Below are positions 13,234 to 59,052 of a DNA stretch of 64,000 bases, piece after piece. Both the position numbers and the translations under genes were made by a program. Each line of letters starts with the position of its first letter. Positions within the stretch are counted from its first letter, which is position 1. Source of the stretch: Sanghuangporus weigelae. Taxonomy: Eukaryota > Basidiomycota > Agaricomycetes > Hymenochaetales > Hymenochaetaceae. The notes under the pieces are model-generated. The model searched no databases, was not told the DNA's origin, and saw nothing but the letters and a program-made list of their open reading frames with translations. The stretch spans positions 3,410,001-3,474,000 of the forward strand of contig CP137319.1 of the NCBI GenBank assembly GCA_033182465.1, written 5' to 3'.

Positions 13234-14952
13234 ATGACCGATCCCCTCAGTCTCGCGCAGCTTATATTTGCCATTCCGCAGCTCATCGATGGCTGCGTAA
13301 GCAGTGCCCGAACGTTCCGGAATTTCCTTAAAGTCGAAGGAAATTACCGTTTCGAATTCGAGCACGCCGAAAGCCAGATGTTCCAGCTTCGCGAATATGT
13401 GATTATTGTCCGATGCACAGCTCTGAAAGAGGACACTCGAGACCATCTCGAGAAGGTTCTCCGTAGGGCCCATCATTACGTGGACAAGCTAACCGCTACA
13501 TTCGAGAAATGGTCCATTCGACTAGGACACGCATGCCTGGACCAGCCCGAAGCTACCGGACCAGACCCGGGCACATCAGAACTTGAGGCAACTCCTTCAG
13601 AGGCCAAACTCCTTAACGAGAAGGAGTCCGGTTCTTCCTCTGATGTCGGTAGTACGCATGCATCTGATCGAGGAAAGTGCAAAACATCCGTCCTCCGATC
13701 GCTTCGCTTCGGGCTCAACAAGTTGTGGTACCTATCACTCGGCTGCATCACCATACGCGAGGCACTTGATAAATTGGAGGCTACGAACAGAGTACTCAGC
13801 GAGTTTATACCCATCTCGCAGCACATGGATCACCTCCTGTCCCATAACGAGGATGCCAAGAAGTTCACTATGCTAGCCAAAAAGAACGATAAGGACGAAG
13901 ACTGTCTCATTCCCGAGAACCTTAAAATCAAAGAGCTCGAGGAGGTGGAGGATCCGATTTTCTTCAAGGTCGAAGAGCCGGGCGAATATTACGGATGCAT
14001 TGTCGAACAACGATACGTGAATGTCCCAGGAGATCGGCCAGGCGAGCTCAAGGAAACGGAACGCTTGGCAAGAGTGCTCCGCGAAGATAAGCAAGCAAGG
14101 GATGGCATCACCGATCCAAATGTCGGAATCCTCAGGTGTTGCGGATACATGCTACCCCATTCTTCTGAACATCTCCTTGTATTTCGCCTTCCGCAATTCC
14201 ATCGAGCGCGAACGCTACGCACTGTCCTGCTAGCACCAGAAACGGAGAACCACATCTTCGAAGATCGCATAGAATTCGCACTGAAGCTTGCAACTGCCGT
14301 TCATGTCTTCCACTCTATAGGTTTCGTCCATAAGGGCATCAAGCCGGAGGCGATACTTGTCGCGGAACACATACTTCCACCTCCCAGTGACGTGTATCAA
14401 CTCGGCACGCCATATCTCGCCGGTTTCAATATCGCACGCTACAACGAGTCAGACTCGGGCATGTACAAATTCGATAGGGTGATGAACAAGAAGCTTTACC
14501 ATCATCCTCGACAGCTCGGAAAGCGTCGACCTCAGAAATACCAGATGGATGACGACATTTACAGCCTGGGTGTATGCTTGCTCGAGATCGGCCTTTGGAA
14601 GTCGGCGTTCAACTGGGATGATAAGAAAAAGATCTATCGTGTGAGCGATTGGGCTAGGGGCTTGTTCGCTGATGTGCCACGGAATCCGCAAGGTTATGTT
14701 ATAAATTTCGAGCTACGAGAGGAGGAAAATGAGAACGACTACCCGATAGACATCGCGCGCAAAAGGAGGCTGACTCACATGGCTGAGTCGATGCTGAACA
14801 CGAAGGTGAACAAGGCGTACTGCAGGGCGGTAGTGGCTTGTCTTACCTTTGGTGAGCAAGCTCGGCTGACCAAGCAAAATGAAAGTTACATTGGCAGTCA
14901 AGAATTCTACGAAAAGGTCATCTGTGAGCTCCGTCGAGCGAAAGGATATTGA
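13234..14952 (+). CDS. C-type protein C1: HeLo-like helical N-terminus plus pseudokinase (572 aa)
   Basis: One coding exon. ATG 13234 follows a 5'UTR intron and is the start conserved in C2. Residues 1 to about 110 are helical, beginning MTDPLSLAQLIFAIPQLIDG, a hydrophobic start like that of fungal HeLo/HeLo-like domains, which act on membranes in programmed cell death. An acidic Ser/Glu-rich linker (about 115-150) follows, then a second helical piece ending in SEFIPISQHMDHL. The pseudokinase has HKG (366-368) in place of HRD, Ala where the catalytic-loop Asn should be, and GFN (397-399) in place of DFG, but keeps DIYSLGVCLLEIGLWKS. It is predicted to be catalytically dead. The HeLo assignment is by eye. 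It sits between A3 and D1. Confidence 0.8.
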   Translation: MTDPLSLAQLIFAIPQLIDGCVSSARTFRNFLKVEGNYRFEFEHAESQMFQLREYVIIVRCTALKEDTRDHLEKVLRRAHHYVDKLTATFEKWSIRLGHACLDQPEATGPDPGTSELEATPSEAKLLNEKESGSSSDVGSTHASDRGKCKTSVLRSLRFGLNKLWYLSLGCITIREALDKLEATNRVLSEFIPISQHMDHLLSHNEDAKKFTMLAKKNDKDEDCLIPENLKIKELEEVEDPIFFKVEEPGEYYGCIVEQRYVNVPGDRPGELKETERLARVLREDKQARDGITDPNVGILRCCGYMLPHSSEHLLVFRLPQFHRARTLRTVLLAPETENHIFEDRIEFALKLATAVHVFHSIGFVHKGIKPEAILVAEHILPPPSDVYQLGTPYLAGFNIARYNESDSGMYKFDRVMNKKLYHHPRQLGKRRPQKYQMDDDIYSLGVCLLEIGLWKSAFNWDDKKKIYRVSDWARGLFADVPRNPQGYVINFELREEENENDYPIDIARKRRLTHMAESMLNTKVNKAYCRAVVACLTFGEQARLTKQNESYIGSQEFYEKVICELRRAKGY

Positions 14953-16504
14953 CATAGAACCATGAAATTATGCATTCGACTCTTAGACAGAATATTAATA
15001 GGCTAAAAGAACATGATCATGTCGTGTAATTGTATTTCAGTCTCGACGCTCGCGCTTAATGAAGCATGCACTCACCAATGAGCAAAATCTGAAGCAAAAT
15101 GTAGACTTGAAATCGATGAACCTAAGCCTGATCAGTTTATGAGCCATAACACAGCGTTACGCTGGCGGTCGTAATCTACAGGCGGTGGTTCAGCGCAATG
15201 CTTGATAAGATTCCTGGTCCCGACTTACATATATCTGTCCTGAGAAGCAGCTTCGTATCGCTGGTATTCGACTGCCGCAGACAGAGTAAAATAAGACTAT
15301 GTAGACTACGCAGCATGAGCATGGACGAGCTGCTATTTGCTATGGGCGGTAGGTGCTGAAGAAGAGGCTATTGGCAGCATGTAGCTCCAACGATCCGCGA
15401 GCCGATATGTGATGGCTAGTGATGCGAGAGTTTCAGATCCAATACCGACGAAGAAGGGTTGGAGCCAAAATGGTGAGAACGAGACAAAACTTCAAAATTC
15501 CCTTCAGCGCGTCCAAGAATCGACAGCAGGAACCGATCTTCATCCATGGAATACGGCTTTCGCCGTTTGTGACTTCAATGACTCATTCTTGAGTGCCATA
15601 TATCAGTATTGCAACAGATATGCTGCGCATGGACGGGTAGAGATGACGGTGAATCATAAAGAAGGAAATCTCTTGGGGTGGAAGTGCGGATTGACACCCG
15701 GGCCGGAAGTGGGCCCGTGACCCTGAGATCCAGATTGGCTTTTACTGTGGCAGCACTTACAGTTGCTGTTCTCGCCTTCATATCACTATGCATGAGACCA
15801 GCTAATTCGATCTTGTTGTTTGATAGTCACGCAAATTTAGTCTCTCCATTTCTCGGACGGGTTGACGATTAACGGCACCACGAAGGCGTGCCCAAGACAT
15901 GAAATGATCCGAAGCCCGTCAGCATTGAAGCCAGATGCGCTACATCTTGCGTGCTACAGTTTGCTTATGTCTTCAGGCTGCTGCTAGTTTTTTTGAGCAC
16001 GACTAGGCTGTACATGCCGCAACAAACATGGCAGCACTCTTCTGCATCCTTCTGAGATGGACCATCCATGGTCTTCGAAATTACGTTCCACCGAAAGTAT
16101 TTGCGTACAAATCAGAACTTACTTGCTTACTTCAAGGAAGATCAGCTCTTAGGAAACCAAACTTCTGCGCTGCATCAGAAGACTCGGCATATATTTTGTG
16201 TCTTTCTGCGAGAGGGATCTGGCAATAGTGGAAGGTCACCTACTTCGACAGATCAATGATTTGGTCATATTTTACATACATGTAATAAGCATGTTCGGCA
16301 GAGGTTGTTGGAAAGAATGAATTGATTAATCATCTTGCCACGGAACCAAAACGTAATGACAATACAACCCTTAAAGAACTTTGATTCCGTAGGTCCTGCG
16401 TGGGCCTTGTGGACCCCAGGTATACCTTGTGTATCACCAGAGATGCTGATCGATTCCCCTGTAACACGCATTATAGTTCTGAATGATATTGTTTGTAACC
16501 CTTG
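14953..16504. other. Intergenic stretch between C1 and D1
   Basis: The largest open frame is 103 codons at 15409-15720 (plus), with no recognisable domain and no paralog at the matching place in unit 2 (34415-35776). A few short overlapping frames occur at 15575-15872 and 16028-16259. I see no RNA gene or repeat, and would not annotate any of these as genes. Confidence 0.4.
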
Positions 16505-16513
16505 TATATAAAT
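16505..16513 (+). promoter_or_regulatory. TATA-like box upstream of D1
   Basis: TATATAAAT lies 74 bp before the D1 start codon, within the usual range for a fungal TATA element with a short 5'UTR. The base match is the only evidence. Confidence 0.4.
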
Positions 16514-16586
16514 TTATCTCGCACGCCTTGTCTGCAAAGTGAGCCTACTGATCGCTGACCTCTCTTCGCTTTGCTTTTGTCTCGTC

Positions 16587-17985
16587 ATGGTCAACAACAT
16601 TCCGAAGGCAGCCGCTGAGCTCAGAGCTGCAATTATTCAAAGTAAGTAGATCCAATATTTTTGGCGGTGCAATAGCCTGATCGTAATTCATGTATACTGT
16701 AGAGCTGAGAGAGCGTAACATACCGGAATACAACCCTGAGCAGCTCGAGAAGGCACCAGCATGTGGACATGGTACTTCCGGCGCAAAATCGATTGTATAT
16801 TGGAAAATGCTGGATAATGGGCAGGTTCGACCTCGTAGTTGTCTTTTTGCCTATCATGATGGCGGTTTAGATGATAATCAATGTTCCATCAGGGCGTTGC
16901 GGTGAAGTGCCTTACACGAAGCGTAGAAAAGCTTGTCGAGAGCGCCGAGGGATCCGCTCAAGAGAAGAAGAGGGAAAGATTATTCCAGGTGAGCGAAACT
17001 TTTGCTCCTTTTCTTCGTCACTTATTAGACATAAATTTAAGTATTTTGAGAGAGAATGCGTACTTTGGCACCGTGGATCTACTGTCTCTGCCGGCTTGCG
17101 GGACCCTAGGGTCGTGAAACTTCTGGGATTTGTGACGAGTTATGATAACAGTATTTTCCCATCGCTCGTTTTAGAACTTCACTCGCTCGGTGACTTGAGG
17201 ACACTTGTTTCTCAACACCCTGAGTTGAGTGATAAGGAGCGGGTTCAACTAGTGAGTTCTCCCATTTCCCCGCGCACCGATTAGTATAGAACTATGCATT
17301 CAGCTAAGGGATGCCGCGTGTGGTATTGCATATTGTAAGTAAATACAATGCATCGACTTGAGTAGCTCAACGATTGCAATAGTGCACGACCCTACGCTAT
17401 TAATTGTCCATCGGGATATCAAAGGGGTGAGTGTTCCCGATCGCTTCTATGATTTTCGAATATCTGACACAACTTCACCAGAGTAATATTATGGTACGAA
17501 AGCGAGAAGATGGAAGACTTGTAGCTGCGATTGGAGATTTTGGTGCCGCTAAGCTGATGGACCCGGAAGTATTTCCAATTCAGAACTCTTCAACGACCCC
17601 ATCACTTTGTTGGACACCGCCCGAGTACATTGTGAACGGTCTAGAGGACTACTCGAAGCCTACAATCCATGGTGACATATGGTCATTTGCGTGTACTGTG
17701 ATTGAGGTATGTGCAGTCATTCAGCAGCAGCGGCTTCCATTCTTAGATAAGGAATTGATATTGCTATAGATTCTCTCAGATGCTGATCCATGGCACGGAT
17801 TTCACGATGTCGTAATGCGCCTTATGGGAGAGGCAGAGCCTCCGTATCCTCCAGCTCCAAGTCGCTTCAAAGGGACTTCCCCTCTTTGTACTTTTCTTCG
17901 ATCATGCTTCCAGCCACCCGCCGACGAACGCCCTACGGGACGTTTACTAGAATCACAGATACGACATCTAGTGGAGGCATCGTAG
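16587..17985 (+). CDS. D-type protein kinase D1 (332 aa, 8 exons)
   Basis: Exons: 16587-16641, 16703-16824, 16893-16988, 17042-17251, 17304-17334, 17383-17426, 17482-17706, 17770-17985; frame is kept at all junctions. A short lead is followed by a full kinase domain: loop region GHGTSGAKSIVYW, VAVKCL Lys, FERECVLW (alpha-C Glu), HRDIKGSN catalytic loop, GDFGAAK magnesium loop, WTPPEY in place of APE, and GDIWSFACTVIE. Every catalytic residue is present, so an active Ser/Thr kinase is expected. The six internal exons have the same lengths as in D2. It lies between C1 and B2 in the repeated module, so it is a candidate partner kinase for the C protein (inference from context). Confidence 0.88.
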
Positions 17986-18696
17986 CTGGACTATTCCCCA
18001 CATAATATTCTTGTTTTTACTCGGACCTTTTAAATAACATGTACATCGCTTCTCCTAGAATATCGGCACGAACTTACACGGATATTCTAAATCAGATAAT
18101 TCACAAGGAAAGTTGAACGCCCGCCAAGAGAGCAACATATAGTTGAATCAGAAGGTGTCAAAATCTGATATTATGCAATACCTGTTTGTCTAACCAATGT
18201 CAAAGAGTTGCAATTCTACACCTTGGTCTTCTGCTTTTTGTTCCCCGTTGATGGAAACACAAACGGAATGCAGGCCTAGTCGGTGTGACTATGCCAAAGG
18301 CAATACAAAGACGAGGTTGATGAGAACGATCACCATGGTAGCGGCATCATGGTCTAACTGACAACAAGCACATTTATCACTTCTCTTGGAGCATAAAATG
18401 GGAGTACACAAACGTGTTATGTTGATCGCGACGTCCGGTGAATACAAATGTGATATTAGAATCGAGTGATTCCTAGATTCGAGTCGTCAAGAGAACGGTC
18501 TTCTTGTACGTCTTCAATAAACTTTTACTTGTCTAACCCACGGAATCCTGATCGCACTTTCCGTCCATATCGGATCTCACTTTCCGCATTTAAGAGTTGT
18601 GCTCTTCGATACGATTATACAAAATTTTACTTTCTCGATAAATAATTTGGGTGTTGTATTGCATGCGTGGCTATATTTACGGCCTTGAGATTCTCA
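17986..18696. other. Intergenic stretch between convergent D1 and B2
   Basis: This is AT-rich 3' flanking sequence of two convergent genes. I see no open frame of note, repeat or RNA gene. Confidence 0.4.
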
Positions 18697-21160
18697 TCAG
18701 ATGGAATAGCGTATAGTTTTGCTCGGAAGTAGCGCATCCAGAATTCGAAGAACACCCCATGCAGCCTCCTGTATGTTGCATCGCTTGTCCGCTGTTTCCC
18801 AACACGATCGCAGCAGTTCCCAGTTGAGTTCATTCTGGGGATGCGGCTCGTCATTTCTGCCTGAATCATCTCCAGGAACGACTAGAGGAGCACTATTTTG
18901 CGTCAATCCTTCGTAAGGATCCCTCTCGTAAACAACCTATATAGAGTGTCAGTACCATCTTCTGTCATGGAGATTGATCAGACGAACCTCGTAAAATGTG
19001 ACTCCGAATGCATACACATCACCCGTCTCCGAAACTCGGGGGACTGAACTGCCGTCCTTCAATTCAGGTGCAAGCCAGTAGTCTGTCGGTTGCCTCTGAG
19101 GAGAGCTGAGATCTGGTTTATCCGACACCGTTTTTATGTAATTGCGATCATCGCCTGGCTCGCCGAAGTCCTTCAGTACTGCATAGCAACTTGGATCATT
19201 TATCATTTCGTTCGTGATCATGACGTTGGACTATAAAGTTTCGCAAATGAAAAAGGGAGGATGAATGACAAAGACAAAAGAGTCGTACCGCTCGTAATGC
19301 GCCGTGCGCAACGGGTATTGCATGCACTGACAACCGACTGCTCATTATACAAGCTCAAAATCATAATTGAGGACTTACTGTAATCAAGCGCGAAAACAAT
19401 GTCTCGCAACTGGAGGTGTTGCGATTCATTTAGCGAAGAATCTCGACATATTCGAGTAAATGATGCGCTTACAAATTTGAATCTGCGATCCTCGGTCAAA
19501 ATCCGCTTTTCGGGACTCTGGGCGCATCTGCCGTACTTGCTTACGAGTTGTTTGAGATTGGTCTGATACAACTCCGAGACTAGACAAAACTGGGGGCTAG
19601 GAGAAGCATCGAACCAGGAAAAACCGAGCAAAGGAGCGAAATGCTTATGATTGATCTTCATCCACAATCGAGCTTGCCTCAGAAGTCTCTAAGTGACGCC
19701 GTAAGAAATCATTTGCCTAGTCAATGAAAGCTTCTTACTTTTGCACACGTGCTCCGTTTGTATATTTTCACAGCGACCTACCTCTTCGCGTTCAACCAGG
19801 GCTAAGTCAATTGAGCATCATGCGACTCACTGCTTTCTGACCCCTACCGCGTTTCATCTCAAAAACGTCTGAATATTTGCCGTCTCCTTTCCATTCCTTC
19901 GTTTCGCAGTCGATCCAGGGCACTTGTCTCAAACCAATTTCCTCCAGTACTGTAAAGTACACAGTAAGCTACTAGTCGTATATGCAACATGATGCTCACC
20001 TCTTCCTTCCAACTTTCTGACGGATACGAATGCATCTGTACAAAGTGTCTTGCCATGATCCGTTATGTCACAGTCATCTACAGATTGGATTTGAGAGTCC
20101 AAAACTATGTCCCGTGAGTGGTTGGCTTCACCTCTATCAATCGATTCAATAGATTTGCTCGGCTTATGAAAATGTTCCTTGCCGGACGAGCATACGTCCT
20201 CGTGTACATCTGGCATACCTTCAGAAAGTGTTGTACACAAGATCATCGAGATGACAGGACGTACCGAAGTCAAAGATGGAGTCCGCTTTCAATTCTTCAC
20301 CAAATTGATGGATGTCAAAGCTGATACTGTTTCCGAGAAGCTGAATGTATGGTAAGCCATTGTTCCTTTTGTTGCAATCGTTACGACCCACGAGACATCT
20401 ATTTCGGAGTTCGGTGACAAGACTCTCCATTTTGCGAATCCGCCCCCCGATGCAACCAACTGAATCGACGGTATCTAACGAAATAGATGAAGACTCCTGG
20501 ACGACCTCCGAGACAAGGTACACGATTCTGAAAGTAAATCAAGAAGCGAAGACTTAACGACAAGCAATCGCTCCTACGGTACAGTGTATTCAAAAAGCTC
20601 CTGAAGGCTCGCAGCGTCTCTCGGAGGAAGGTTGTAACATAAGATAATGTGATAAAGTAGCACTTCTCTGCATCTCTCAGCGATTGTGCTCAGACAATTC
20701 ACGTTTGGAGATCTCCTCACGATCTGTCGTAGCCAATTAAGTACGTTTTCATAGACACGCCATACTGTAAGATTGTACGCACCATTATTTGTACTTTCTC
20801 CAATATTTGTATAACTATTCGCCTTGCGAGACGTTGCGTGTCTACCCATGCCTTGGTGCCTGAGAGCGGTAGTCAGAAATGCCGTAAACACTTCTCAGAA
20901 TAGAAGAACTCACGTAAATGCGGTGAATCTGCGCGCTTGCGATACCACCATGTCCGAAAATCCGTTTCGTTGTACTCCAACTCTGACCATAAATTCCTTG
21001 TTGGCGAATTCGCGACTTCTAGTTCTAGGAAGCCAGATCAACTGCCTCACGGTGAATAAAAAAATATCTGGAACTTACGTCTAAAGCCCAGTTTCCAAGT
21101 GGACGGAAGTCGCATCTCCTGCGCAAGCTTTTCTGGAGTTGTAAAGGTGCCCGAGGTCAT
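18697..21160 (-). CDS. B-type kinase B2, short N-terminal form, probable pseudokinase
   Basis: Many-exon gene; start ATG 21160 (MTSGTFTTPEKLAQEMRLPS) matches the start of B4. The helical N-terminal region contains the conserved F-x2-WW-R-K-R-ADSP segment, LARRIVIQILEKVQ, then LLYHIILCYNLP. The kinase part keeps the loop region (WKGDGKYSDVFEM), VAVKIY and KDFG. The alpha-C Glu is Gln (RQARLW, codon 19674-19676) and the catalytic loop reads HGALRA, so the proton-accepting Asp is Ala (codon 19298-19300). B4, its module partner, has RESRIW and HGDLRA. The frame appears otherwise open and spliced normally, so this looks like a maintained pseudokinase or a kinase in early decay. Exact exon list not fully worked out. 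Confidence 0.75.
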
Positions 21161-22712: not shown

Positions 22713-23986
22713 ATGAAGCTAATGAGTCTTTTCCATGATCTGTTTTATGACGAGCCATACCAAATTGACGGGTTGTGGTAGCGAGATCGTAACCCACTTC
22801 TGGAATCTCATGGCTATCGTCTCTACAATAGATTGCGTCCGGATTGTATACCTTCATGGACGTTAAATCGAGAGTTGCGACCGGTGGACTGCGAGGATTC
22901 TATGAGTCAGCTTGTGAGTTGCTCTTCAATGGCATCCTTGTCGTTAATAGTCTGAAGTATTATAGTTCTCCCAGATTACTGATGCTACTCGCATCTCCGA
23001 CAGTTCGCACGTTATCATCAAGAGAGAAGACACTGAAAGTGCTATAGCGTCGCACCTGTCGTCTCTCAGAGATCCAAAAATCATTGCGTCCCGATCATTG
23101 ATTCTTTCATGAGTCATACAGATGACAGGATTAGATTCATCGTCATGCCATTACTACGTTACTTCAATGATCCTTCATTCCAATCAGTCGACGAAGTCGT
23201 CGACTTCGTGCAGCAAACTCTCGAGATTTGTAAGCAGTACTCTCGATATCGATGCGTTTACCAGCTTGAGTGAAGGGAATCGCTTTTATGCATGCCAACA
23301 ATGTTGCGCGCAGGTAAAGTTTGATACCAGCTGCCCGAAAGCTGTCTGACATCGCAATCTATCAGAGATTGTGCGGACCTGAATATCATGCTGGACGGAA
23401 CGTCGATGTACCCAGAAGGCTTTCACCCGGTTCTCCAGAGCAGAAGCCGCAACTGGAAAGAACCGGCGAAGTTCAGAAGCCGGAGCAATAGCCAAGGAGT
23501 CAAGTATTACTTCATTGACTTCGGGTTGTCCACGCGATTTGAGGGTACGAAGGAAGGTCGACTTGTGACTGGCCGCATTTGTCAGGTGTGCGTCCCCGAA
23601 CTTTCGGATTGCATTCCCTATGATCCCTTTGCAATTGACATTTGTCTGCTCGGAGATGTTTAAAGGAGGAACTTTCTTGAGGTATGCCAGCTGCTTTGTA
23701 TGATTGCCGCTCTAACATGTCCCTTCAGAAATACTCGAACGTACAGTTCTTGATACCTCTTGTGAAATCGATGACTCGAAAGGATCCATCTCAACGTCCC
23801 AAAGCTGATGAAGCTCTTAGACAACTTGAAGGGCTTGTATCCCAGGGGTCTGAGTTTTCCTTAAGATGGCGGCTTCTAAAGCCCGACGTAGGTCGAATCT
23901 CTTGGCACTGGATCACAGTTGAGTGCTCTGGTCGTGCGGTTGTTATTATGATTCGGCGTCTTGCGAGGAAGTTCAACACGTCGTAG
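22713..23986 (+). pseudogene. A-type kinase-like pseudogene psiA4
   Basis: The A-type layout is traceable from ATG 22713 to 23986. Lesions: in exon 1 a small deletion removes the region before the WWRDR motif and leaves TAG at 22779-22781; in exon 2 a 1-nt loss just before the NHCVPI-equivalent (near 23080) shifts frame; and in exon 4 TAA replaces the Tyr of the GDVY motif near 23660. The catalytic exon is otherwise recognisable (RDCADLNIMLDG, FIDFGLSTRF, CVPELSD), and the last exon is open to its stop. It occupies the same place in unit 1 that intact A8 holds in unit 2. Confidence 0.82.
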
Positions 23987-24491: not shown

Positions 24492-26670
24492 TTAATTGAC
24501 TCTGCCGTGGGCAGATGCGGAGGACGAATATGAGAACCAGTGAAGAAACCATATTTGATGCAGGAGTACCTTATGTATGCCTTGCGCAGAGACGCTGAAA
24601 CCACACGAACAGTCAATGATTGAATTCAGTATCTCAGGACGGAGAGACGTACACAACCAAGACTTAATCGCCAATTTTGTTTCGCGCTTCATAGAACCAA
24701 TATCACACAAGAATCGGCTTAATCTGTCCGCATCGGACGTGACTATCAAGCGTAGCAGAAGTCGAGGAGTTTGCTGTTTAACGATATCATTGAAGAGCTG
24801 CAAAGATTCGTGGACTGTCGGTCGTGACTTCGGATCCCGTTGGATCATGGCATCGATTAGCGGAGCCAAGAAAGAAAGCCCGTCGTATTGCTGCGGGACA
24901 ATAACTGAGTCGAGAACTATGCACGATAAAGAAGAATGGATGCATACTTCGACTAAGACATCCTTGAACACGTCGCCGAGTAAAAAAATGTCCACAGCGA
25001 ATGGATCATACGGATCGTCCTGGTAGAGCTCAGGCAGGTTTTTGTCAAGGCATGCCTTGCCTGTGACGAGGCGATTAGCGTCATTTCCATCAAAGTGGGA
25101 CGATATGCCGAAGTCAGTGAAATAGTATTTAACTCCAGCGACATCTCTTCGCCGCCGCGGATGCGCAAAGCTGGTTCTACCATACTCGAGATTCCGAGCA
25201 CCAGGATGAAATCCTCGTGGAAATACAGGAGTCCCATCCATCATGATATTCAAGGTCGAGCAGTCCCTGTTCATGAATTTCTATCAGCACTATTTCTAAT
25301 GACTGCGCTGCGCTGGTCACCTATGAGCCACGTTGTTGTCGTGAAGAAAAGACAAGCCCTTGTGTCCGAATGTCATCATCAGCTGCAGCTTAATTGCGAC
25401 CTGATAATTTGAGCGTACCTCTAACATCTGCCTCATGAAATGCACGACTTCGTCCACAGACGTGAACGGAAGAATACTAAAATTGATTAACAGAGGCATG
25501 ACGAGGAATATGTAAGCGTCGTCATCTTCACTGAAAACGTCAAGTAGGGGAACTGCGTGGTTGCGAGGATCGCGGAGCATCTCTTCAGATGTGAGGTACT
25601 TGAGTATAGGGAGCTCATCGCTTCTTCTAGGGACTCTCTTGATCGCTACCTTTGTCCCGTCTGACACTCGAACAGCATCAATGACCTTCGGGTGCTGCAC
25701 AGATAGCTGAGTGGGAACTTCGACCGTCACTAGTGAACAGATATATACTCACGAAGTTCCTATACCCATCTTCACAAAGTAGTGGATCTTTCTTCTTTCG
25801 GACCCATGATGGAGTCCATCCCGGACGAAATCTTGGTCGCAATTGGTAGCCATACTTCATGAGGAAGCCATATCGATCCCTCCACCACCTTTCGCCACTG
25901 TTGAGATCGAAAGGTATGCGCGTTGTTCCATCGGGAGTTTTTGCCTTTGAGTGCATCGGTACTGAGTTGATTGAAGGTCATCGCGTGTAGAATATATCCG
26001 CGACCCATTGTGATAGAGAACAAAAGCGAACAAAATAAACGTGCCGCGTTGAGACTTGTGCCGCCTGATACAGCAGATGATCGACGCGGGCCTTTCCGTA
26101 GTCAGGGGGCCTGCGCGGCTGTTCTTGCTTTACTTTGGCCTTCGCGTAGCAATATGCCAATATGAAACCCGGTAAGTTCTCAGCTTTGGCCCATACAAGA
26201 GTAACAAGACTTTTACAAGTGGACTAAAATCGTTCGTTCTTGATCTCTTGGAGTCCAAGATGAAACCTTTGCGCTATAGCTTTCCGCTGATTTTCTGTTT
26301 TGCTTAGCTCACACAGCTCATCCAGTAGCTATAATATCTACAGGGCAGGTTAATAAAGAATTGATCGTAAATCGGGCGGCATTTAATCTCAATACTTCAG
26401 AGAACAAAAGACAAGCTTAGATAAGAGCACATATATTGATCTGGATGAAAATTCATGTGCCGAGCAAAATGGTACACTTGTACGTATAATATGGAGATCA
26501 GCACTGCTTGTAGACAATTATTGCTCCTGTTGTCTGTCTGTCTGATGTCATCAGGGATAAAGGTAGTAAGGTACGGAGTATTGATTGAAGCCTCCTAAGA
26601 GAAAAAGTCGGAGGGAGCGGTATTTGCAAACGCACTGACAGCACGGTAACAAAATAACATGGCGAATAAG
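24360..26670. repeat. Recent duplicate block around A5 (partner at 44760-47040)
   Basis: Gene A5 and both its flanks align with gene A9 and its flanks. Examples are the shared upstream text AATATATCCGCGA(C/T)CCATTG at about 25990 and 46388, and the shared distal text GCCTCCTAAGAGAAAAA at about 26588 and 46960. Indels and about 5-15 percent substitutions separate the copies by eye; exact identity needs alignment. Confidence 0.7.
24492..25956 (-). CDS. A-type kinase-like protein A5 (369 aa, 7 exons)
   Basis: Exons (minus): 25956-25753, 25694-25419, 25358-25321, 25266-24948, 24890-24653, 24594-24570, 24501-24492; total divisible by three. The N-terminal module has GERWWRDRYGFLMKYGYQLR, then PGWTPSW. 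The kinase-like part has VAIKRV, HRDCSTLN, the FPRGFHPGAR insert, FTDFGISSHF and LPELYQDDPYDPFAVDIFLL. The two tiny last exons give a basic tail (SSLRKAYIRVN) and are placed by exact agreement with A9. It is intact and closest to A9. Substrate unknown. Confidence 0.85.
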
Positions 26671-30513: not shown

Positions 30514-30673
30514 GCTTGAGTGTTTAGGGACGGTTGAACGCGATGCAATGAACCTTTTGTTCTTTATTCGACCCTTGACCGTGTGAACGTTTACTAATTG
30601 GGACATCCTTGATCAGCGTGTCCGTCCTTATACTCTACTCCATTGCAAACTTCCTCCGCCTTACTGACCTCTC
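30514..30673. promoter_or_regulatory. Compact divergent promoter between B3 and A6
   Basis: 160 bp between two divergent start codons, the counterpart of 11100-11300 in unit 1. The A6-side half is similar to the sequence upstream of psiA2. Conserved head-to-head spacing in both units suggests that the pair is co-regulated (inference). Confidence 0.5.
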
Positions 30674-37162: not shown

Positions 37163-37353
37163 GCAGATAAGGCTTCAAAGATCATATTTGTCTTCCATCG
37201 GACTCGGAGATTTGCACCGTGCATATTTCAACTTTAGAACGTTCAAAAGAGGGCTTTCGCCGGCATCATTTCATTCTATGTACGTATTCCTGATGACCTG
37301 TAATTGTCGAATACTTTATGTTTCCATGCTTTGGGGTAATTATCCATTGGGAT

Positions 37354-44597: not shown

Positions 44598-44883
44598 CTG
44601 ATGATTTCCGCTGGCAGTTCATGATCGCGATCGCCGCTCCATTATAGTCTACTTTCAATATGTCCCTGTACATCGTAATCTCGAACTACAACTTGTCGGA
44701 TTTCAAGAGATATCTACTTGATGTTCTATGTCTACACTATCAGAATCTCAGCCAATGTCAGCAATGATCCAAGCAGATTACTTCCCGATATGCGGGCTCT
44801 TTTGTTGTCATCAAAGACTAGAATAGGTGGAAGGATCTACGCGTATTCTTCCGCAAACGTAGGATAACAGTCGAGACCGAGTG

Positions 44884-47040: not shown

Positions 47041-47847
47041 TCATGGTGTGAGCTTAGGATAGAGTCCTGCACAGGTGCGGCTTGATGACGATCGCTTCGT
47101 CGAGCTTAGATCGCAAAGCCGTCTGCTAAGCCTGTCCATACTCGGACGACGCAAGATTTGCCACGAAAGCCGAGGCATCTGTTGCTTGACGATGCCATTG
47201 AAAATCTCTAGACACTCATTAATGCTTGGCCAGGTAACTGGATGTTTCTGAGACATCATGCCCATAAGTGGCGAAAAGAAAGCAAGGTCTTCATTTCTAT
47301 TTGCATAGAGAATATAATCGCTAAAAGTTATTCCAATGAAGGAAGGTGTCTTTACAAAACAATGCTTGTACAAGTTTTCAAGAACGAAGACGTCCACGCA
47401 GAGCGAGTCGAACGGCTTACCCTGGCAGAGCGCAGGAAGCGCCTTGTCTTGCCAGTCTTTCCCTGTGATCGGAAGTTCTCTGTGGCATCATCGGATCGTG
47501 AAGATATACCAAAGTCGGGATAAAGGACGTCCCGACGGCGGCAGGGATAAGCAGAATATTTTCCACCAGTATTGAGGTGTGGAGTAGCAGCATGAGTGCC
47601 CTTTGGAAAGAACTCTCTCGAATCCGTCATGATATTCAGAATTGAACAGTCTCTATATGTCAACTTCGGCATTAAACCCGGGCTTCATTAGTCACCTATG
47701 CGCAATTGCTTTGCTATGTATGAAAGACAATTTCTAAAAGAAGTTAGAATATATCATTTGCCACTCGAAGAGAAAGACACTGCTCACCTACAAAGACTGC
47801 TTCATGAAAACGATTACCTCATCCACCGAACCGAACGACGGATTACC
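47041..47847 (-). pseudogene. A-type kinase-like pseudogene psiA10, 5' part missing
   Basis: Reading on the minus strand, the end of exon 2 (NPSFGSVDEVIVFMKQ), the 38-nt exon (LSFIHSKAIAHR), the catalytic exon (RDCSILNIMTDS, FPKGTHAATP) and the last exon are recognisable. In the catalytic exon about 15 nt are missing just before DFG (RRRDVLYPDFG, lacking the VKYYF segment). A frame change follows soon after, so that the VDVF segment is in another frame. Upstream of exon 2 the gene stops at a long inverted-repeat element; exon 1 and most of exon 2 are not found beyond it. Clearly dead. Confidence 0.8.
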
Positions 47848-49366: not shown

Positions 49367-50752
49367 ATGGCTGCTGCAGCGATAAGTTCTAGTGAAGAAG
49401 ATTCCAAAGAATATAACGACCTTTTCTTGCTCAATGAGGATGAATGTTGGTGGCGCAACCACTATGAAGTCTTCATTCAACATGGATATGAACTTCGCCC
49501 GCGATTTCGCCCTGGATGGAAACCGTCGTGGGAGCGCTCAAAGAAGCTGCCATTCCTCTTTGAAGACGGTCAATTCAATCTGGTATCAAACTAATCCTTG
49601 CGTAACTGAATCCCAGCTCACGAGTGACACCATGCCTAGCACGCAAAGACTATGGACGCCACGCGTGCTTCTGATGGAAAGCGTATCAAAATGAAGAAGC
49701 TGTTCAAGGGCAGCAAAGAGCTGGAAATAGCCCGGTTTTTCTCGAGCGAGGATATGTCGAGGGATCCCCGTAATCACTGTGTTCCGGTACTTGACGTATT
49801 CAGCGAGGAGGGCAGCCCCTTGGAGTTTATGGTCATGCCTCTTTTGACACTTTACCAGGATCCTCCATTCTCGACGGTGGATGAGGCTCTCGATTTCATG
49901 AAACAACTTCTTGAAGTACACATTCCTTTCTCAGTGCCTCATGTTCAAACTGACAAAGCCCTTTTTAGGGATTAGTTTTCATGCACGAACATGGTGTGGC
50001 TCATAGGTGAGCATGCCGATACTCTTAGTGTGCGACAATATTTAAACTACCTAGGGATTGTTCATCAAATAACATCATGATGGATGGGGACCCGCTCTAC
50101 CCGAAGGGGTTTCACCCGAGTTTGCCCATGCTAGATGCAAGTGGGAAGAAGGCACGACCGCGGCGAAGACGTAACGCTCATGGTGTAAAATACTATTTCG
50201 TAGACTTCGGAATATCCAGTCAGTTTGACGGCACCGAAGAGACGCGTCTTGTCACTGGGCGGGATGGATTAGATAAAGATGTTCCTGAGCTTCATCAATA
50301 TGTACCGTATGACCCTTTCCTCGTCGATATTTTTATTTTGGGCAACCTTTTCCGAAAGGAGCTGATCCGTGTATGTTTTTTCACCCTGCTTTAGCTAGAT
50401 GGCACTGAATCTTTATTCTAGGAATACGATAACATGAGTTTCCTTGAGCCACTGGTTGACAGAATGACGCAGCAGAAACCAAGCGATCGCCCGACAGCGT
50501 CAGAAGCTCTAGTCTTGTTCAACGAGCTTATTCACAAACAATCACCCCGATCGTTGAGATGGGCGCTTATCGAACTTGACGGAAGTAGATTCGATAAGGT
50601 CGTCTGGATTACCGAGTCTCTGGTTCATGAGGTCTCGGTCCTGTTCAAGTCGTTCTTCTGTATGTATCCAGTGCTTATGCGTGAAGCCTTCTAAGTAGTC
50701 CTCTCTGTTAGTTTTCATGAAAAGAACTCTCAGGGAAGGCCGAAGGAGTTGA
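49367..50752 (+). CDS. A-type kinase-like protein A11 (374 aa, 6 exons)
   Basis: Exons: 49367-49582, 49640-49915, 49969-50006, 50055-50370, 50422-50659, 50712-50752; frame is kept. The N-terminal module has EDECWWRNHYEVFIQHGYEL, then PGWKPSW. The kinase-like part has IKMKKL, HRDCSSNN, YPKGFHPSLP, FVDFGISSQF and VPELHQYVPYDPFLVDIFIL. The beta-3 Lys context (IKMKK) is more divergent than in other copies, but the Lys is present. The final exon encodes a short basic tail (FMKRTLREGRRS) and is inferred from a GTATGT donor and TTAG acceptor. Intact; pairs with pseudogene psiA12. Confidence 0.85.
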
Positions 50753-51122
50753 TGGCAATCGTGATAAAATTAATTTATGCGTTATGCGCTTTGTTAGTGT
50801 CATTAGTAGTGGAATCTCGTTCGGTAATTAGACAATTTCCCGTAAGACAATAGCTGAGAGAAGTCCAAATCCAGGCGAGGGTTTTGACGTAATGAGAGCC
50901 TGCACACTTCCAATCAACCAACGAGCGCGATCAACGTTGCGTTAACATCACTCATTTTGTGTGCTCTCGTTACAGAAAGTGACGAAAGTGCCATAAGCTT
51001 TGGGCAGACTTTGCTCTCAAAGACCGACGATACATTTCGATCAGCTCGTACTTGTAAGTCGATAGCTCTCACCATTTGACCAAAGTCTCAACCATGTTCA
51101 GCATGCACTTGCCGCATCATCA

Positions 51123-53585
51123 ATGACAGATCTCGTTTCTCTGGTCCTTGGAGTGCCGAATATCGTCGAGGGATTCGTTAAAACTTGTCAAGCTATTAAA
51201 TCTTTTAAAACCGTGGAACTAGGGTTCCGACCGTATCGTATACGGATACGGCCGTATAACTCGAGTCTTATACGGATACGACCGTATGAAATACGGCCGT
51301 ATATTTGGTGGTCAAGGTCTCATACGGATACGGAACACCCGTATACGGGAATACGGCGTATACGGAGGTTCCGTAACTCTACCACATCAGGACATACTAA
51401 CAAATATCTTTTCAAAGTGTTCAAAGTCTATCTCGATACAATGAAGGTTCTGCTCACTGATAATGGTGCTTAGGGATGATTTTCATAGCAGTCCAGCAGA
51501 TCAGCGTATTTGTGATCACCGGATGTGTGTGAATAATCGCTTACCTGGTTGCATATTGCCAAAATTTTTGCTGGCACCAGTCCTGCCGTGCTTGGTAACA
51601 CTCAAATTATGATTTCCAAAGAAAATAATATGCTCCCCGCATGGAAGGCAGGGACAAATACCCTTCCAAAGGGCATGCGAAGCGGAGTTCCGTATATGGC
51701 GCATATACCGTATACGGCATTTCTTTCCCAACTCTATACGGGATACGGCCGTATATATACGGGCCGTATATTTTCTTCTTTTTCTCTTATACGATACGGC
51801 CGTATCCCGTATACGGAAAGCCGTATACGCATTATACGCATACGGTCGGAACACTACGTGGAACACAAGCATCGCCAAGTCGTTCGCAATGCAGAGTACT
51901 ACTCGAGGAAGCTGAGATACTACGCTCTACTTATTGACTGTTCCTCGCTGCGAAATAATGAAGCAGCTGGAATACAAGAAGTATTTCGGAGGAAAGAATG
52001 GCAAATTTCTGGGATCGAGAACGACGACCCTCACATAATCGCACGAGATTCGCAGATGCTCCTCTTAGAGCTTTTTCAAGACTCAGTCGCTGCGCTTGCT
52101 ACCGCCAAGAAAGTCATCGAAGAATGGTGTATCCGTCTCGGATTGAACATCGAGGACTACCGTCGCCATCAGATTTTTGCTGCGAAACTTGCACTGTCAA
52201 TTTCCGACTTTGTGACAAGAAAAATCCATGTTTCCGACCAGAAGAAGGAAAAGGGCACAGTTTCTACCATCTACGGAAAGACAGCTTTTCTAGTGATAGG
52301 CAGTAGGCAAATCGAGGACGCGATAGGTCGACTTGAGCATTGGCTCAGACAGTTGCACGACGTACTTATGGTCTCTCCACTTCTTAGGCACGATCTCATA
52401 AATAACCGACAAGACGCGCTCGAGACTGAAAAGGAGCTCGACGATGACGTTCTATTCATCGCAATAGCTCGAGCAAGAGCCACGGATGGACGGACAATGG
52501 AAATCGTCAAGCCGGAACTAATTTCCTCGCTTCAGCCGCTTGATATTCGAAAGCCAAATAGCCTTATGTTGGTTGACTCTCAAGAGAGCCCGTACTACGG
52601 CTGTATAGTTAATCGCAGAAACATCATACATCTTTGGCATAAAGGAAAGGAGGAACAGGCACTAAAGGATGCACAGCTTATCGCTTGTCTCTTCTCGGAA
52701 GAACATAACGAACTCGGTCATGACGTGTCGGCAACTGCAGGCGTACTTCCATGTTGTGGTTTTGCAAGACCGTAAGCTCACTACCACGATGTCGTCTTCC
52801 GTGTTCCCGGCGGTTCCAAAAGGCCGAAAACACTTCGGACTCTTCTGTTAGAAGGGAATCCGCGACACTCCCTAGACGAACGCCTCAAACTCTGCATAAA
52901 GCTAGCCTCCGCCGTTCTAGTCGTGCACTCCCCCAGGATTGTGCACAAAGACATCCGCCCAGATTCGATCATTATAGCTGACAATATGGTCGACCTCCGA
53001 GCGTCAGACAACGACCCTCCCGTTCTTGGTGAACCTTACCTTGTCTCGTTTAACGTATCGCGATCTATAGACTCGAGCACAGAGCCTCTCGTACCATCAC
53101 AGTACGGTGGGCCTCGTTATACACTCACCCAAGGCACTTCGAAGGGCCTCTACATCTCCCGTTTGAGATGCGCGATGACGTATATAGCCTGGGTGTATGC
53201 TTTCTGGAGATCGCGATGTGGTCTTCGCTCTTCGTCTGGACTCTGGAGCGATGATGCTCAAGCTTATATCAACGATACGTCTATTTGCGATCTTTCTGAA
53301 GCGCGATATGACAGAATTCTGGACGAAGCTGGTGAATACATGTATCGTAGTTCAAGATGGCTGAGGCATCGTGACTTGGTCCTGCTGGCAGAGCGACGGG
53401 TCCCAATAACTATGGGAAATGCCTTCAAAGACGTTGTTGTCGAATGTCTGACTTTCGGAATGGGGAAGAAAACGCTAGCGGAGGTTATACGAGCCAGAGA
53501 TTTAGGCCAAAACCATTTCCAGAATCAGAGTGTAGCATTTGTGAAAAACGTGCTTTCCAAGCTCCGTAATCTAAAGCTCTCCTGA
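51123..53585 (+). pseudogene. C-type gene psiC4 (HeLo-like plus pseudokinase), broken
   Basis: Homologous to C3 from the start (MTDLVSLVLGVPNIVEGFVK) to the end. Three lesions: a 637-bp hAT-like element inserted at 51220-51856 in the first helical segment; a TAA at 52773-52775 shortly before the pseudokinase; and a frame change near 53145, after which the DDVYSLGV-equivalent continues in another frame. The catalytic-loop equivalent is HKDIRPDS and the DFG position reads VSFN. Coding character outside the lesions is still good, so the loss is fairly recent. It sits between A11 and psiA12. Confidence 0.85.
51220..51856. mobile_element. Non-autonomous hAT-like element with 8-bp target duplication
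   Basis: A perfect 8-bp direct repeat CGTGGAAC flanks the element (51212-51219 and 51857-51864). Its termini are inverted repeats, TAGGGTTCCGACCGTAT on the left and the complement of TAGTGTTCCGACCGTAT on the right (one mismatch). An 8-bp duplication and TAG-type ends are the hallmark of the hAT superfamily. Both subterminal regions (about 51230-51375 and 51685-51845) are packed with variants of the palindromes ATACGGCCGTAT and CCGTATACGG. The centre (about 51380-51680) is unrelated and has no transposase domain I recognise. Element plus one target copy is 645 bp, a multiple of three, but internal stops end the host frame. Confidence 0.85.
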
Positions 53586-54018
53586 TGTATGTATGCTATA
53601 TCCTTTCATCATGTCCATGCACGGATGTAGAAGATCATACGATGCAAAAAGCGCGATGGCTATTCTTTTTAGACAGAAGAGGGCATCCGTTCTCATACTT
53701 TTATCGAAAGTAGGGATTCTTCAAATTGAGCAAAAGCCCAGGACACTGAGGACAGCCTGGACAGTCGAGATATCCGTGCCACGCAAAATGGAAATTATAC
53801 CGGCCGTATTTTTACAGCTGTCCCATATAATAAGAATCCGTTAAATACGACGTCTCTGGAAGACGTAACGTACCTACTCATATTCTGAATATTTTTTTGC
53901 AGCGGCGACTCGTCAAGGGGGTCGGATATATTCTTACGTAATCTCGGATCAGCCATTTTTTGTTTGTTCTTGTTTTCTCTTTGAAGCCGAATCCACCATC
54001 CGGCCAGAACCCTCACTT
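53586..54018. other. Intergenic region between psiC4 and psiA12
   Basis: No gene-like frame or repeat recognised. Confidence 0.4.
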
Positions 54019-55336
54019 ATGATTCTTTTGTTTTTGCTCAAAACTGTGAAAAACGCGAGCCGTTCATGCTGTTAGAGAATGAACGCTGGTGGTGCGATCA
54101 CTACAACGTCTTCATTCGACACGGGTACGAGCTTCGCTCACGTTACCACCCCGACTGGACGCCATCGTAGGCAGGAACCAAGAAGTTGCCCTTCTTTTGT
54201 GAAGATGGACTTACAAACAAGGTGCTCAGCCTTCTTTCCCATATTGTGTAACTTATGAATGCTAGCTCGCGCAGCATCCCAAGACTATGGACGCGAAGCG
54301 TATCTCCGATGGAAGACGCATAAAGATGAAGAAGCTGGCCAAGGGCAGTAAAGAGTTAGAGATAGCTCGGTTTCTGACGAGCGAGGAGATGTCAAAGGAT
54401 CCTCGTAATCACTGTGTTCCGATACTTGACGTGTTTAGCGAAGAGGACAGTCACTTGGAATTCATGGTCATGCCTCTGCTTGCTCACTACTCGCAACCTT
54501 CATTCTTTACTGTGGATGAAGCTCTCGACTTCGTGAGGCAGCTCCTTGAGGTACGCCCACCCTCTTCCTTTGTCTTGTACTAAAAGTGTTCACTGTCATT
54601 GGCAGGGCTTAGTATTCATGCATGAAAATGGTGTAGCCCATAGGTGAGTATGTTGTTGTCCTCATAGTATAGGGTGTCAAATTCGTTCTACTTAGGGACT
54701 GCGCAGAAAACAATATCATGATGAATGGGGATCCTTTGTACCCGAAAGGCTTTCATCCCTGTTTGCCTATTCTCGACGCGAAGGGGAAGATGGCAAGGCC
54801 TCGACGAAGACGTGATACTCGCGGCGTGAAATACTATTTTACGGACTTCGGAATTTCTAGTCGGTTTGAAAGCGCTGAGGAGATTCGGCTTGTCACAGGT
54901 CAGGATGGACTGGATAGAGAAGTCCCGGAACTCCGTCAATTTGACCCGTATGACCCTTTCTCGGTGGATGTTTTCATTTTAGGAAACCTTTTTCGAAAGG
55001 AGTTGACGGACGAATGTATGGCTCTTCGTTCGATTAAGCTGAGTTAAGACGATTGTTTAGGTTTACGAGAACATGGAGTTCCTTGATCCTTTAGTTGAAA
55101 AAATGACGCGACAAAACCCGTGCGAGCGGCTGACGGCAGAGGAAGCGCTACATTTGTTCGATAGTCTTGTTCAGGAGCAATCTCCGCGATCGTTGCGATG
55201 GTCTCTCATTTATCACGACGGAACCAGACTAGATAGATATGTCTGGACTACCGAGTCCTATGTTAACGAGGCTTTTGTACAGTTCAAGTCCTTCCTGTGT
55301 ATGTTCCTGAAAGTGTCCATCTTTGACGTTTCCTAA
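54019..55336 (+). pseudogene. A-type kinase-like pseudogene psiA12, sister of A11
   Basis: Exon 1 is recognisable (NERWWCDHYNVFIRHGYELR) but the Trp of the PSW motif is TAG at about 54168, and no in-frame ATG precedes it. Exons 2 (54275-54550), 3 (54606-54643) and 4 (from 54696) are open, with IKMKKL, VFMHENGVAHR, RDCAENN, YPKGFHPCLP and FTDFGISSRF. After exon 4 the expected donor after 55011 is absent: the text reads GACGAATGTATGG where A11 has CGTGTATG, and use of the next GT would shift frame. Exon 5 is open again to 55336. It is probably silent; a start at a downstream ATG (54284, MDAKRISDG) cannot be excluded. Confidence 0.75.
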
Positions 55337-56139: not shown

Positions 56140-56731
56140 TCTGACGGAACGAAGTGGTCCTCAACAAAATCGTCGATTTCATGTGGCAGACACTCGAGAT
56201 TCGCGTTTATATAATCTACATGGACGCGCTCACTGACTACAATTGAAGGAAAATGCTTTCATGCGCCCCAACAATGTATAGGTATGAACATCCACCGTCT
56301 ACCTAGATGGCTTACATGGTGAAAATGATTTATCTGTAGACAGACTGCGCCGACTTGAGCATTATGCTAGACGGAAGATCGAAATTCCGAGAAGGCTTTC
56401 ACACCATCCGCGATACCATCAACTGGAGTTCGGCGGCTCTGGTAAAGTTCAAAAGCTAAAGCGACTGGCCCGGCGTAAGATATGATGTTTCTGACTTCCT
56501 ACCTCTCTTCAAGATTTGATGACACAGATGCAGCCTGACACATGGAAGCGGGTCCTCTTTGAGGTATTGTTTCTAGTTTTGCGCCAATTCAGTACGAAAC
56601 TCAACTTCCCTTGTCAGAAATACTCAACTGTCCAAATATTGGTGTCTCTAGCGGAAGCAATGTCGCAGGAGGTTCTGTCTCAATGTGCCAAGATTGATGA
56701 AGCTCTGAAGCAGCTTCGATATTCCCGTTGA
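56140..56731 (+). pseudogene. A-type kinase-like relic psiA13, heavily eroded
   Basis: The end of exon 2 (IVDFMWQTLE), a degraded 38-nt exon (ENAFMRPNNV followed by TAG), the start of the catalytic exon (DCADLSIMLDG, REGFHTIRDT) and part of the last exon (KYSTVQILVSLAEAMSQE) can be followed. The segment from the insert through DFG, PEL and VDI is largely deleted; what remains has a stop at about 56457. Exon 1 is not found. This is the oldest-looking A remnant in the window. Confidence 0.75.
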
Positions 56732-57297: not shown

Positions 57298-59052
57298 TCA
57301 AGAAAAGTTAAGGCTACGAAGCCTACTCAATACATCCCGCACAAATGCAACGCTTTCATTCTTATTCTCATATTCCGTATCTGTAATCTTCATAACGGAC
57401 TCGTTGAATGTCGGCTTGGACTTCTCTCCAAACATGAGGCACGATACGACGACGTCCTTGAACTTGCAGCCCATAACGGGTGGTATTTCCTTCTCCGCCA
57501 ATCTGATCAGGTCCCATCGCATTAACCATCCTCTATTCCGGTACTCTGGCTGACCCATCTCCAAGAACATGCGCTTGTACTTGTCTATTGAGAAGTCGAA
57601 CCATGAGAAATCCGCATCATAACATTCTCTCCTGTCCTTCCACGAGAATAGGGACTTCCAGAGTGCAACCTCGATGAGGACGACTCCAAGGCTGTATACG
57701 TCATCTCGCATATGATACCGAATGTGTTCTGTCGTCGTAGTGTGGACTGGATGTGTGTAGGCCACTCTCATGTAGTGAGAATACTTGAATGGAGTGATGG
57801 TAGTGTCGGCGCTGTCAGGCCGCGCTCGGTCAAAGTTTGCGAGATATGGTGTCCCGAGTTTCATTGGGAATAAGTCACCTTCGTCACCCATCAGTGGTTC
57901 GAAGACAAGTACCGAGTCTGGCCTTATATCCTTGTGTACGATACCCAGAGAATGTACAATGAGTACGGAGGTGGAGAGCTGAATTGCGAATCTAAGGCGG
58001 TCATCTAGAGAATGTCGAGGCTCTCCCCCCAGAAGAAGCATGCGCAGGGTTCGCGGTTGTCGCGTACCCGATGGGGGCCTGAGAACCAAGTCATGCTCAT
58101 TGCTATAAAATTCCGCGGAGACCTTCGCCCAACCGCAGCAAGAAAGCATTGCGGAACCAGCAAATGTTTGGATAATCGCCGTGCCAGATCTCTCTTCCGC
58201 GAAGAGCCTCGCAATATATTCCGTCTCTGTTACCGCCTTTTGGACTAGCGATTCTTTTCTATAAAGATGGTTCACGTCGCGTCGATTGATCACACATCCC
58301 ATATACCGCCCCTTTTCTATCATGTAAAACCCAGTCGGGCGCGCGGGATCGAGGTCCACGTAGGTGTCAATTTCTGATGCATCGATTCGATGAGCCGGAA
58401 GATCCTCCTCCAAACGCCGTCTGCAGCTAGCAACGAATAGAACATCGTCGAGACATTCCTTCATGCTGGTGATACTGGTATGAGATATTGGATCTCTGAA
58501 ATTCTTGAGTGTTTGGAAGGAGAGAAGAATGTCGCCTACATCTCCGGTCCATTTTTCAAGTACATCCATGGAATCGTTGATCTGACGACATCCCATGGCG
58601 AGATACGCGATTTCCGATGCGAATTTCCCAACCTTCGAACGTCTGAAGCGAGATAAAGGTTCCAACTTATACTTCAGCATCAGTCTTTCTGCTATGTTCT
58701 GCGCCATGCGGGCCATGAGAATCCTGCTGTTCGAGTGCGACGTAATCTGCAGTCGTATCGTCCAATCCTCGACGATTCGTGCCGTGGTCAACATCGCATT
58801 ATATGCATGTAGCACAGCTTCTTCAAGGAGATACTGCTGCTGAGAGTCGGCAGCTGCTATTCCAGACTTCGCAGTGTCGACATCGATGAACGATACGTAG
58901 TAGGCGAGTTTGCGGCTCCCGAAACTGGCTCGTTTGATGGCCTCCGTATGATTGCGTTGCAAATGCCTGTACTCTTGCACAGATCTGCACGTCTTCACGA
59001 CCCCTTCGACAATGGCCGGGAAGGATAGAACGAGACTTACGAAGTCGGTCAT
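57298..59052 (-). CDS. C-type protein C3: HeLo-like helical N-terminus plus pseudokinase (584 aa)
   Basis: Single coding exon. ATG 59052 (MTDFVSLVLSFPAIVEGVVK) is the start matching psiC4; the frame extends 40 codons upstream without homology and contains a likely 3' splice site, so it is read as 5'UTR. The helical head (about 1-180) is followed by a pseudokinase-like tail with an RHSLDDRLRFAIQLSTSVL helix, HKDIRPDSVLV (Asp kept, catalytic-loop Asn replaced by Ser), LANFDRAR where DFG is expected, and MRDDVYSLGVVLIEVALWKS. It is a different subtype from C1/C2, which have HKG and GFN. It is intact and runs opposite to psiC4. A membrane-active head is inferred by analogy only. Confidence 0.82.
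   Translation of the reverse strand: MTDFVSLVLSFPAIVEGVVKTCRSVQEYRHLQRNHTEAIKRASFGSRKLAYYVSFIDVDTAKSGIAAADSQQQYLLEEAVLHAYNAMLTTARIVEDWTIRLQITSHSNSRILMARMAQNIAERLMLKYKLEPLSRFRRSKVGKFASEIAYLAMGCRQINDSMDVLEKWTGDVGDILLSFQTLKNFRDPISHTSITSMKECLDDVLFVASCRRRLEEDLPAHRIDASEIDTYVDLDPARPTGFYMIEKGRYMGCVINRRDVNHLYRKESLVQKAVTETEYIARLFAEERSGTAIIQTFAGSAMLSCCGWAKVSAEFYSNEHDLVLRPPSGTRQPRTLRMLLLGGEPRHSLDDRLRFAIQLSTSVLIVHSLGIVHKDIRPDSVLVFEPLMGDEGDLFPMKLGTPYLANFDRARPDSADTTITPFKYSHYMRVAYTHPVHTTTTEHIRYHMRDDVYSLGVVLIEVALWKSLFSWKDRRECYDADFSWFDFSIDKYKRMFLEMGQPEYRNRGWLMRWDLIRLAEKEIPPVMGCKFKDVVVSCLMFGEKSKPTFNESVMKITDTEYENKNESVAFVRDVLSRLRSLNFS

Follow-up and report, generated by a model that had tools for sequence, protein, structure and literature searches.

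A 64,000-nucleotide stretch of the Sanghuangporus weigelae genome (contig CP137319.1, designated contig C2 here, positions 3410001-3474000; hereafter, the window) carries genes of a family that we call C, encoding a predicted helical head followed by a dead kinase tail, directly behind genes of a second family, D, encoding an active-looking kinase. Our tentative reading is that these form an array of two-gene modules, each made of an active kinase (D) and a head-pseudokinase effector (C), with the kinase possibly switching the effector via its dead tail. This reading is based on the observed loss of catalytic residues in C, the active-looking D, the fixed order of the two genes, the correlated divergence of their sequences, and evolutionary constraint on one pair of C genes. 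Genome-wide searches covered 33.87 Mb on 13 contigs. The C genes, all on the same contig, are as follows (window positions for the first four, contig positions for the others; aa, amino acids).

13234-14952, + strand: C1, intact frame, 572 aa; head at residues 1-208 (13234-13857), then pseudokinase tail with HKG and GFN
32591-34414, + strand: C2, intact frame, 607 aa; head and pseudokinase tail
57298-59052, - strand: C3, intact frame, 584 aa; head and pseudokinase tail, HRD Asp retained, Asn and DFG Asp gone
51123-53585, + strand: C4, disrupted copy; head carries an insert, with a stop and frame damage farther on
3494.9 kb: E17, further C gene
3505.4 kb: E20, further C gene
3526.0 kb: E18, further C gene
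3545.5 kb: E19, further C gene
3563.4 kb: E22, further C gene
Near 3053, 3060, and 2719 kb: outlying C genes

C1, C2, and C3 are intronless, each forming one uninterrupted reading frame, and they have the head and kinase-like tail described for them in an initial annotation of this sequence. The C1 and C2 proteins are 53% identical. C4, absent from that earlier set, is disrupted between the first and second head helices by a transposon-like insert of ~640 bases. The inverted repeats at its ends (51220-51236 and 51840-51856) are 94% complementary across 17 nt. The insert (51220-51856) resembles a miniature inverted-repeat transposable element and contains many ATACGGCCGTAT palindromes. Genome searches with the C2 protein gave at least 15 matching pieces and those with the C3 protein at least 17, all on this contig; these counts are lower bounds. 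The pieces resolve into at least 12 C genes, with additional fragments at around 3497 and 3528 kb, and eight of the genes are single intact frames of 572 to 609 aa.

With 12 members and constraint on one pair, the C family is more than a chance occurrence. E19 and E20 are 75% identical, and their ratio of nonsynonymous to synonymous substitution rates (dN/dS) was 0.09 (NG86) or 0.12 (YN00), about the same in head and tail; these values are rough because dS exceeded 1. The ratios indicate that E19/E20 are under purifying selection. This was the one pair with a whole-length estimate, those for C1/C2 and E17/E18 having failed through saturation, and the heads alone gave 0.24-0.29 for C1/C2 and 0.11-0.16 for E17/E18. 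Decay of the whole family was rejected as an explanation, since the constraint on E19/E20 speaks against it for that pair.

All eight full-length C proteins matched the Pfam Pkinase profile at E ≤ 0.1; among the members with scores shown, only C1 passed the curated cut-off, by 0.1 bit. DUF7580 (PF24476) matched the C-terminal kinase-like region of three of the eight at E ≤ 0.1 (best E, 1.6e-5), with scores for C1 (23.3 bits) and C2 (25.1 bits) that, like all scores shown, lie below the 27-bit cut-off. A whole-genome search with DUF7580 gave no matches, but its controls were silent too, though the C1 and C2 proteins match, and it is uninformative on absence. Neither the DFG Asp nor the catalytic Asn is kept in any of the 12 C tails, both being replaced, and no GxGxxG loop was seen in any of the 12 (motifs of C4 were read from its second piece only, and those of the outlying genes from the open frame alone). 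The tails were therefore rejected as active kinases. The loss of Asn and DFG Asp reported initially thus holds throughout the family, and the HKG...GFN of C1 and C2 was read as stated. For C2, the β3 string picked up by the motif pattern is spurious.

MLKL is the executioner of animal necroptosis, and RIPK3 is its activating kinase. A profile of the eight C proteins matched 17 distinct sequences in the PDB at E ≤ 0.001; three of these were MLKL, of which 6vbz ranked second overall (E, 6.4e-7). Among the three alignments shown, the one with 6vbz was alone in spanning ~200 tail residues, and in it HGN...GFE of MLKL pairs with HK...xFx of C. With C1 alone as the query, ULK2 was the best match (3.1e-6) and MLKL reached 0.014. 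By these comparisons, the C tail is a predicted pseudokinase that has MLKL among its nearer solved structures, with sisterhood to MLKL not established.

The D genes of the window, which are interrupted by introns, were located by tblastn with one D protein; the block at 45-47.8 kb contains two genes.

11235-12660, + strand: D gene directly upstream of C1, several exons; gap ~570 bp; DCSDLN, TDFG
30668-32037, + strand: D gene directly upstream of C2; gap ~550 bp; DCSDLN, IDFG
49424-50694, + strand: D gene directly upstream of C4; gap ~430 bp
59338-60764, - strand: D gene directly upstream of C3; gap ~285 bp
44840-46355, - strand: D gene unpaired with C; five hand-spliced exons (46355-46152, 46094-45819, 45761-45724, 45671-45353, and from 45295)
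~2740-3989, - strand: D gene without C behind
6063-7012, + strand: D gene without C behind
22776-23717, + strand: D gene without C behind
24612-25956, - strand: D gene without C behind
41491-42410, - strand: D gene without C behind
43259-44496, + strand: D gene without C behind
47044-47835, - strand: degenerate D gene without C behind
53991-55327, + strand: D gene without C behind
56343-56498, + strand: D fragment without C behind

The hand-spliced gene at 44840-46355 encodes VVIKK, VAHRDCSTLN, and TDFG, so that the β3 Lys, HRD Asp, Asn, and DFG are all present, and its product matched Pkinase with an E value of 1.2e-11 and 45 bits (cut-off, 31.7). Motifs were counted in 20 D exons, 10 adjoining a C gene and 10 not; nine or more additional D loci beyond the window did not enter the counts. 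The DFG motif was present in all 20, and the catalytic-loop Asp and Asn were present in 19, although the Asp/Asn pattern used for finding those 19 itself requires these residues; the Lys stretch was displayed for eight. Judged by these motifs, D is an active-looking protein kinase. In the D gene before E19 (L039, 3543-3545 kb of the contig), ~1.3 kb separates the catalytic and last exons.

For 10 of the 12 C genes (C1-C4, E17, E18, E19, E20, E22, and the gene at 3060 kb), the next recognized gene in the 5' direction, on the same strand, is a D gene, with gaps of ~180 to 1780 bases in the eight pairs for which we took hand measurements from the frame ends. In the window, all four C genes are preceded by D, an arrangement equalled in 483 of 100,000 shuffles of 24 genes; the gene list was made by hand, and the gag of a retrotransposon, two fragments of D, and frames without an assignment were left out of it. 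The two families also share their genomic locations. All 45 matches of one D query (D9) were on this contig, of which 43 fell within 3.391-3.599 Mb and the other two at 3062 and 2733 kb, and all 44 matches of the D protein from 3062 kb were at the same places (42, one, and one). With these queries, D was found at three genomic places only, those of C, with the outlier D genes lying 1.7 and 14 kb from the outlying C genes. Identities among C proteins correlated with those among the neighbouring D exons, both for seven pairs (r = 0.854; 9 of 5,040 permutations) and for ten (r = 0.758; 0 of 20,000 permutations).

The hydrophobic N-terminal helix noted in the initial annotation was confirmed for C1, C2, and C3, where, of all 19-mers in the protein, the one beginning at residue 4 or 5 is the most hydrophobic (mean Kyte-Doolittle values of 1.46, 1.42, and 1.65, respectively), but it is not a general trait, the N-terminal maximum of the five other intact members being 0.24-1.29 and not the maximum of the protein. 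An AlphaFold model of the head, made from a three-row alignment, has four long helices and one short helix (residues 4-30, 36-61, 68-102, 148-191, and 196-207), with a mean predicted local distance difference test score (pLDDT) of 54. An extra stretch between head helices 2 and 3 is found in E17, E18, and C4 (window 51066-53585); C1, C2, C3, E19, E20, and E22 are without it. A six-frame search of the whole genome with SesA, a profile described as related to Helo_like_N in the available part of PMC9815663, gave a single match at E ≤ 1 (E, 0.095), and this match was a C head, that of E22. A chance SesA match would be unlikely to land in a C head, so this result provides weak independent support.

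Under the module reading, the pseudokinase tail of C would hold the head at rest. Some cue would switch on D, which would then phosphorylate the C tail, likely in the Ser/Thr-containing region that runs from the lost DFG to the HPR motif (all eight C proteins have two to five Ser/Thr residues in the segment that follows the DFG position). The phosphorylated tail might change shape or oligomerize and release the head, which would act on a membrane, as with RIPK3 and MLKL. Activation by phosphorylation that frees the head for the membrane is the leading, unproven mechanism, and C might in this way take part in cell death or non-self recognition. Doubtful, in our estimate, is the broader proposal of a kinase-switched, NLR-independent, necroptosis-like fungal system, in which diversified pairs of active kinase and MLKL-like executioner would act, perhaps as lock and key, in non-self recognition or defence, parallel to or sharing ancestry with RIPK3-MLKL.

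Many results weigh against the module reading. The initial annotation had called the head HeLo-like, and this was not borne out: neither HeLo (PF14479) nor MLKL_N matched any of the 12 heads scanned with Pfam; SesA matched one of the 12 (E22), at 17.5 bits against a cut-off of 26.3 and no better than unrelated families; consensus heads gave no improvement over single heads; and neither HeLo nor MLKL was among the PDB matches of a head profile. AlphaFold confidence was low for the head and for full-length C3 (pLDDT, 38.9), and fold searches with the low-confidence head model returned generic helical bundles. The identity of the C head as HeLo or four-helix bundle (4HB) is not established by sequence or fold. 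A whole-genome HeLo search gave no matches, with its controls silent too, and says nothing about absence. The whole-genome MLKL_N search gave one weak match, elsewhere, at a locus on another contig (L033, contig C4, near 1777279). As a positive control, the joined exons of this locus pass the Pfam MLKL_N cut-off (28.5 bits versus 27), which no C head does, and hhalign of the C head profile with it gave a probability of 0.3%. L033 has an MLKL_N part followed by a long tail, and no kinase was noted in its displayed open frame. The MLKL-like plan put forward initially is supported as far as it concerns a helical head and a pseudokinase tail, whose family profile puts MLKL second in the PDB search; HeLo or 4HB membership of the head, like a membrane or death activity, is not supported.

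For the tail, the HRD Asp is retained in four of the 12 (C3, with HKD...NFD, C4, E17, and E18), contrary to its initially described loss in C3. The comparison with solved kinases put MLKL second and EIF2AK1 first (2.8e-7), with matches also to EIF2AK3, LIMK1, and DCLK1, which count on the same side, and to a MAP-kinase-kinase-like protein. In C1 and C2, the activation segment is not clearly richer in Ser/Thr than the protein as a whole. The D gene beside E18 (L018) has Val in place of the catalytic Asp and a last exon interrupted by a stop; it also has a small deletion, and its C neighbour E18 is intact. Pairing has its exceptions as well: the C gene at 3053 kb has no D nearby, the one at 2719 kb has a D 14 kb off, and no C lies behind nine of the 13 D genes of the window. 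The nearest C and the nearest paired D agree in only five of ten cases, and the paired D genes do not form a clade of their own, several having their nearest match in an unpaired D (81% for the D of C2 and 84% for that of E19, for example).

It is possible, though somewhat unlikely, that C serves D as a pseudokinase scaffold or an allosteric partner, with the head as an oligomerization or adaptor domain, and that the two form a signalling complex in which no effector attacks a membrane. Dead kinases often play such roles, and pairing and correlated divergence would fit equally well. A head recognized neither as HeLo nor as MLKL_N would also be expected, as would weak N-terminal hydrophobicity, seen in five of eight intact members, and a tail matched by EIF2AK1, EIF2AK3, and LIMK1 as well as by MLKL. 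Less easily accommodated are the N-terminal helix of C1-C3, which is the most hydrophobic stretch of the protein, the fall of the genome's single SesA match at E ≤ 1 in a C head, and the grouping of published fungal head-pseudokinase proteins with death effectors (PMC12881547, in the part available).

An unlikely explanation is that no functional link exists and that a lineage-specific tandem kinase array had its D-C order fixed once and then copied by segmental duplication. All C, D, and B (see below) matches lie on one contig, and larger blocks of D, C, a third kinase, and B repeat at 11-20.5 and 30.7-39 kb. Broken copies and fragments are present (C4, D at 47 kb, and the C fragments mentioned above), and block duplication alone would produce correlated C and D identities, as co-duplicated genes yield correlated trees. 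Still, while other neighbours differ, the D-C order persists in copies with only ~22-30% C identity and at a distinct locus that lies 360 kb off, which block duplication would not explain well, and E19/E20 are under purifying selection.

Very unlikely is that C is an ordinary HeLo-family effector under NLR or amyloid-motif control with incidental kinases nearby: fungal HeLo proteins are described as being under such control as a rule (available parts of PMC9815663 and PMC10197012), but C has a pseudokinase tail in place of a C-terminal amyloid motif (no amyloid-motif search was made), and kinases, with no recognized NLR, recur beside it (no NLR-domain search was made).

The window contains other kinase genes and a retrotransposon reading frame.

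27496-28720, - strand: B-type kinase, HGDLRA...ANVLV...NDFG
8299-9698, - strand: B-type relative
18952-20538, - strand: B-type relative
37357-39107, - strand: B-type relative
63195-63515, + strand: B-type relative
16871-17766, + strand: third kinase type with GDFGAAKL, shortly downstream of C1
36038-36986, + strand: relative of the third kinase type, just downstream of C2
1-1140, - strand: Copia-type gag frame, Retrotran_gag_2 E 1.1e-15

The block of D, C, third kinase, and B is present in two copies that share order and orientation (11235-20538 and 30668-39107). Control of C by linked kinases, as first suggested, agrees with the position of D immediately 5' of 10 of the 12 C genes and does not extend to the B kinases, which share the region without fixed pairing. 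A B kinase as fixed partner of C was rejected, the eight B matches having no constant position; D, not B, is the likely partner.

The initial annotation had regarded a fungal version of this plan as new. Fungal HELL proteins with a kinase or pseudokinase domain, reminiscent of MLKL, were already published in a 2025 review (PMC12881547). The stated architecture, a head plus a kinase or pseudokinase, is that of C; in the part of the review available, no neighbouring kinase gene or array of pairs is described, and the C head is unconfirmed as HELL. No account of a fungal gene pair of kinase and pseudokinase effector was found in the literature searched, which left most subscription papers outside its scope, nor did any paper found there name DUF7580, a family that matches the C-terminal kinase-like region with scores under its cut-off. 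Plant MLKL proteins were reportedly described by Mahdi in 2020. They resemble C, by description only, in having a helical head and a kinase-like domain outside animals (Pm13, available part of PMC10951266). According to the parts available, basidiomycete MLKL_NTD-like (BaMLKL) domains occur on NLRs or alone (PMC9815663), MLKL-family transport proteins have been assigned to Glomeromycotina (PMC8778642), and Agaricomycete-expanded kinases near tyrosine kinases have been reported (PMC3937382). If C heads are 4HB domains, they would be expected in one superfamily with BaMLKL and L033, of which L033 passes the MLKL_N cut-off that the C heads miss.

Descriptions of HeLo-type death effectors in fungi place them under NLR or amyloid control; if the module reading is true, a neighbouring active kinase would provide the MLKL-like control that has been missing there. 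A simple organism would then be available for testing the origin of kinase-triggered necroptosis, and the gene pairs name partner candidates for such tests. C differs from MLKL in that its head is not established as 4HB, its putative kinase is the product of a neighbouring gene, and the order of conservation does not set MLKL apart from other kinases, EIF2AK1 ranking above it. Like MLKL with RIPK3, C has a helical head, a dead kinase tail in which a non-DFG xxF motif occupies the corresponding position, the MLKL pseudokinase in second place in the PDB profile search, and a putative partner in an active kinase.

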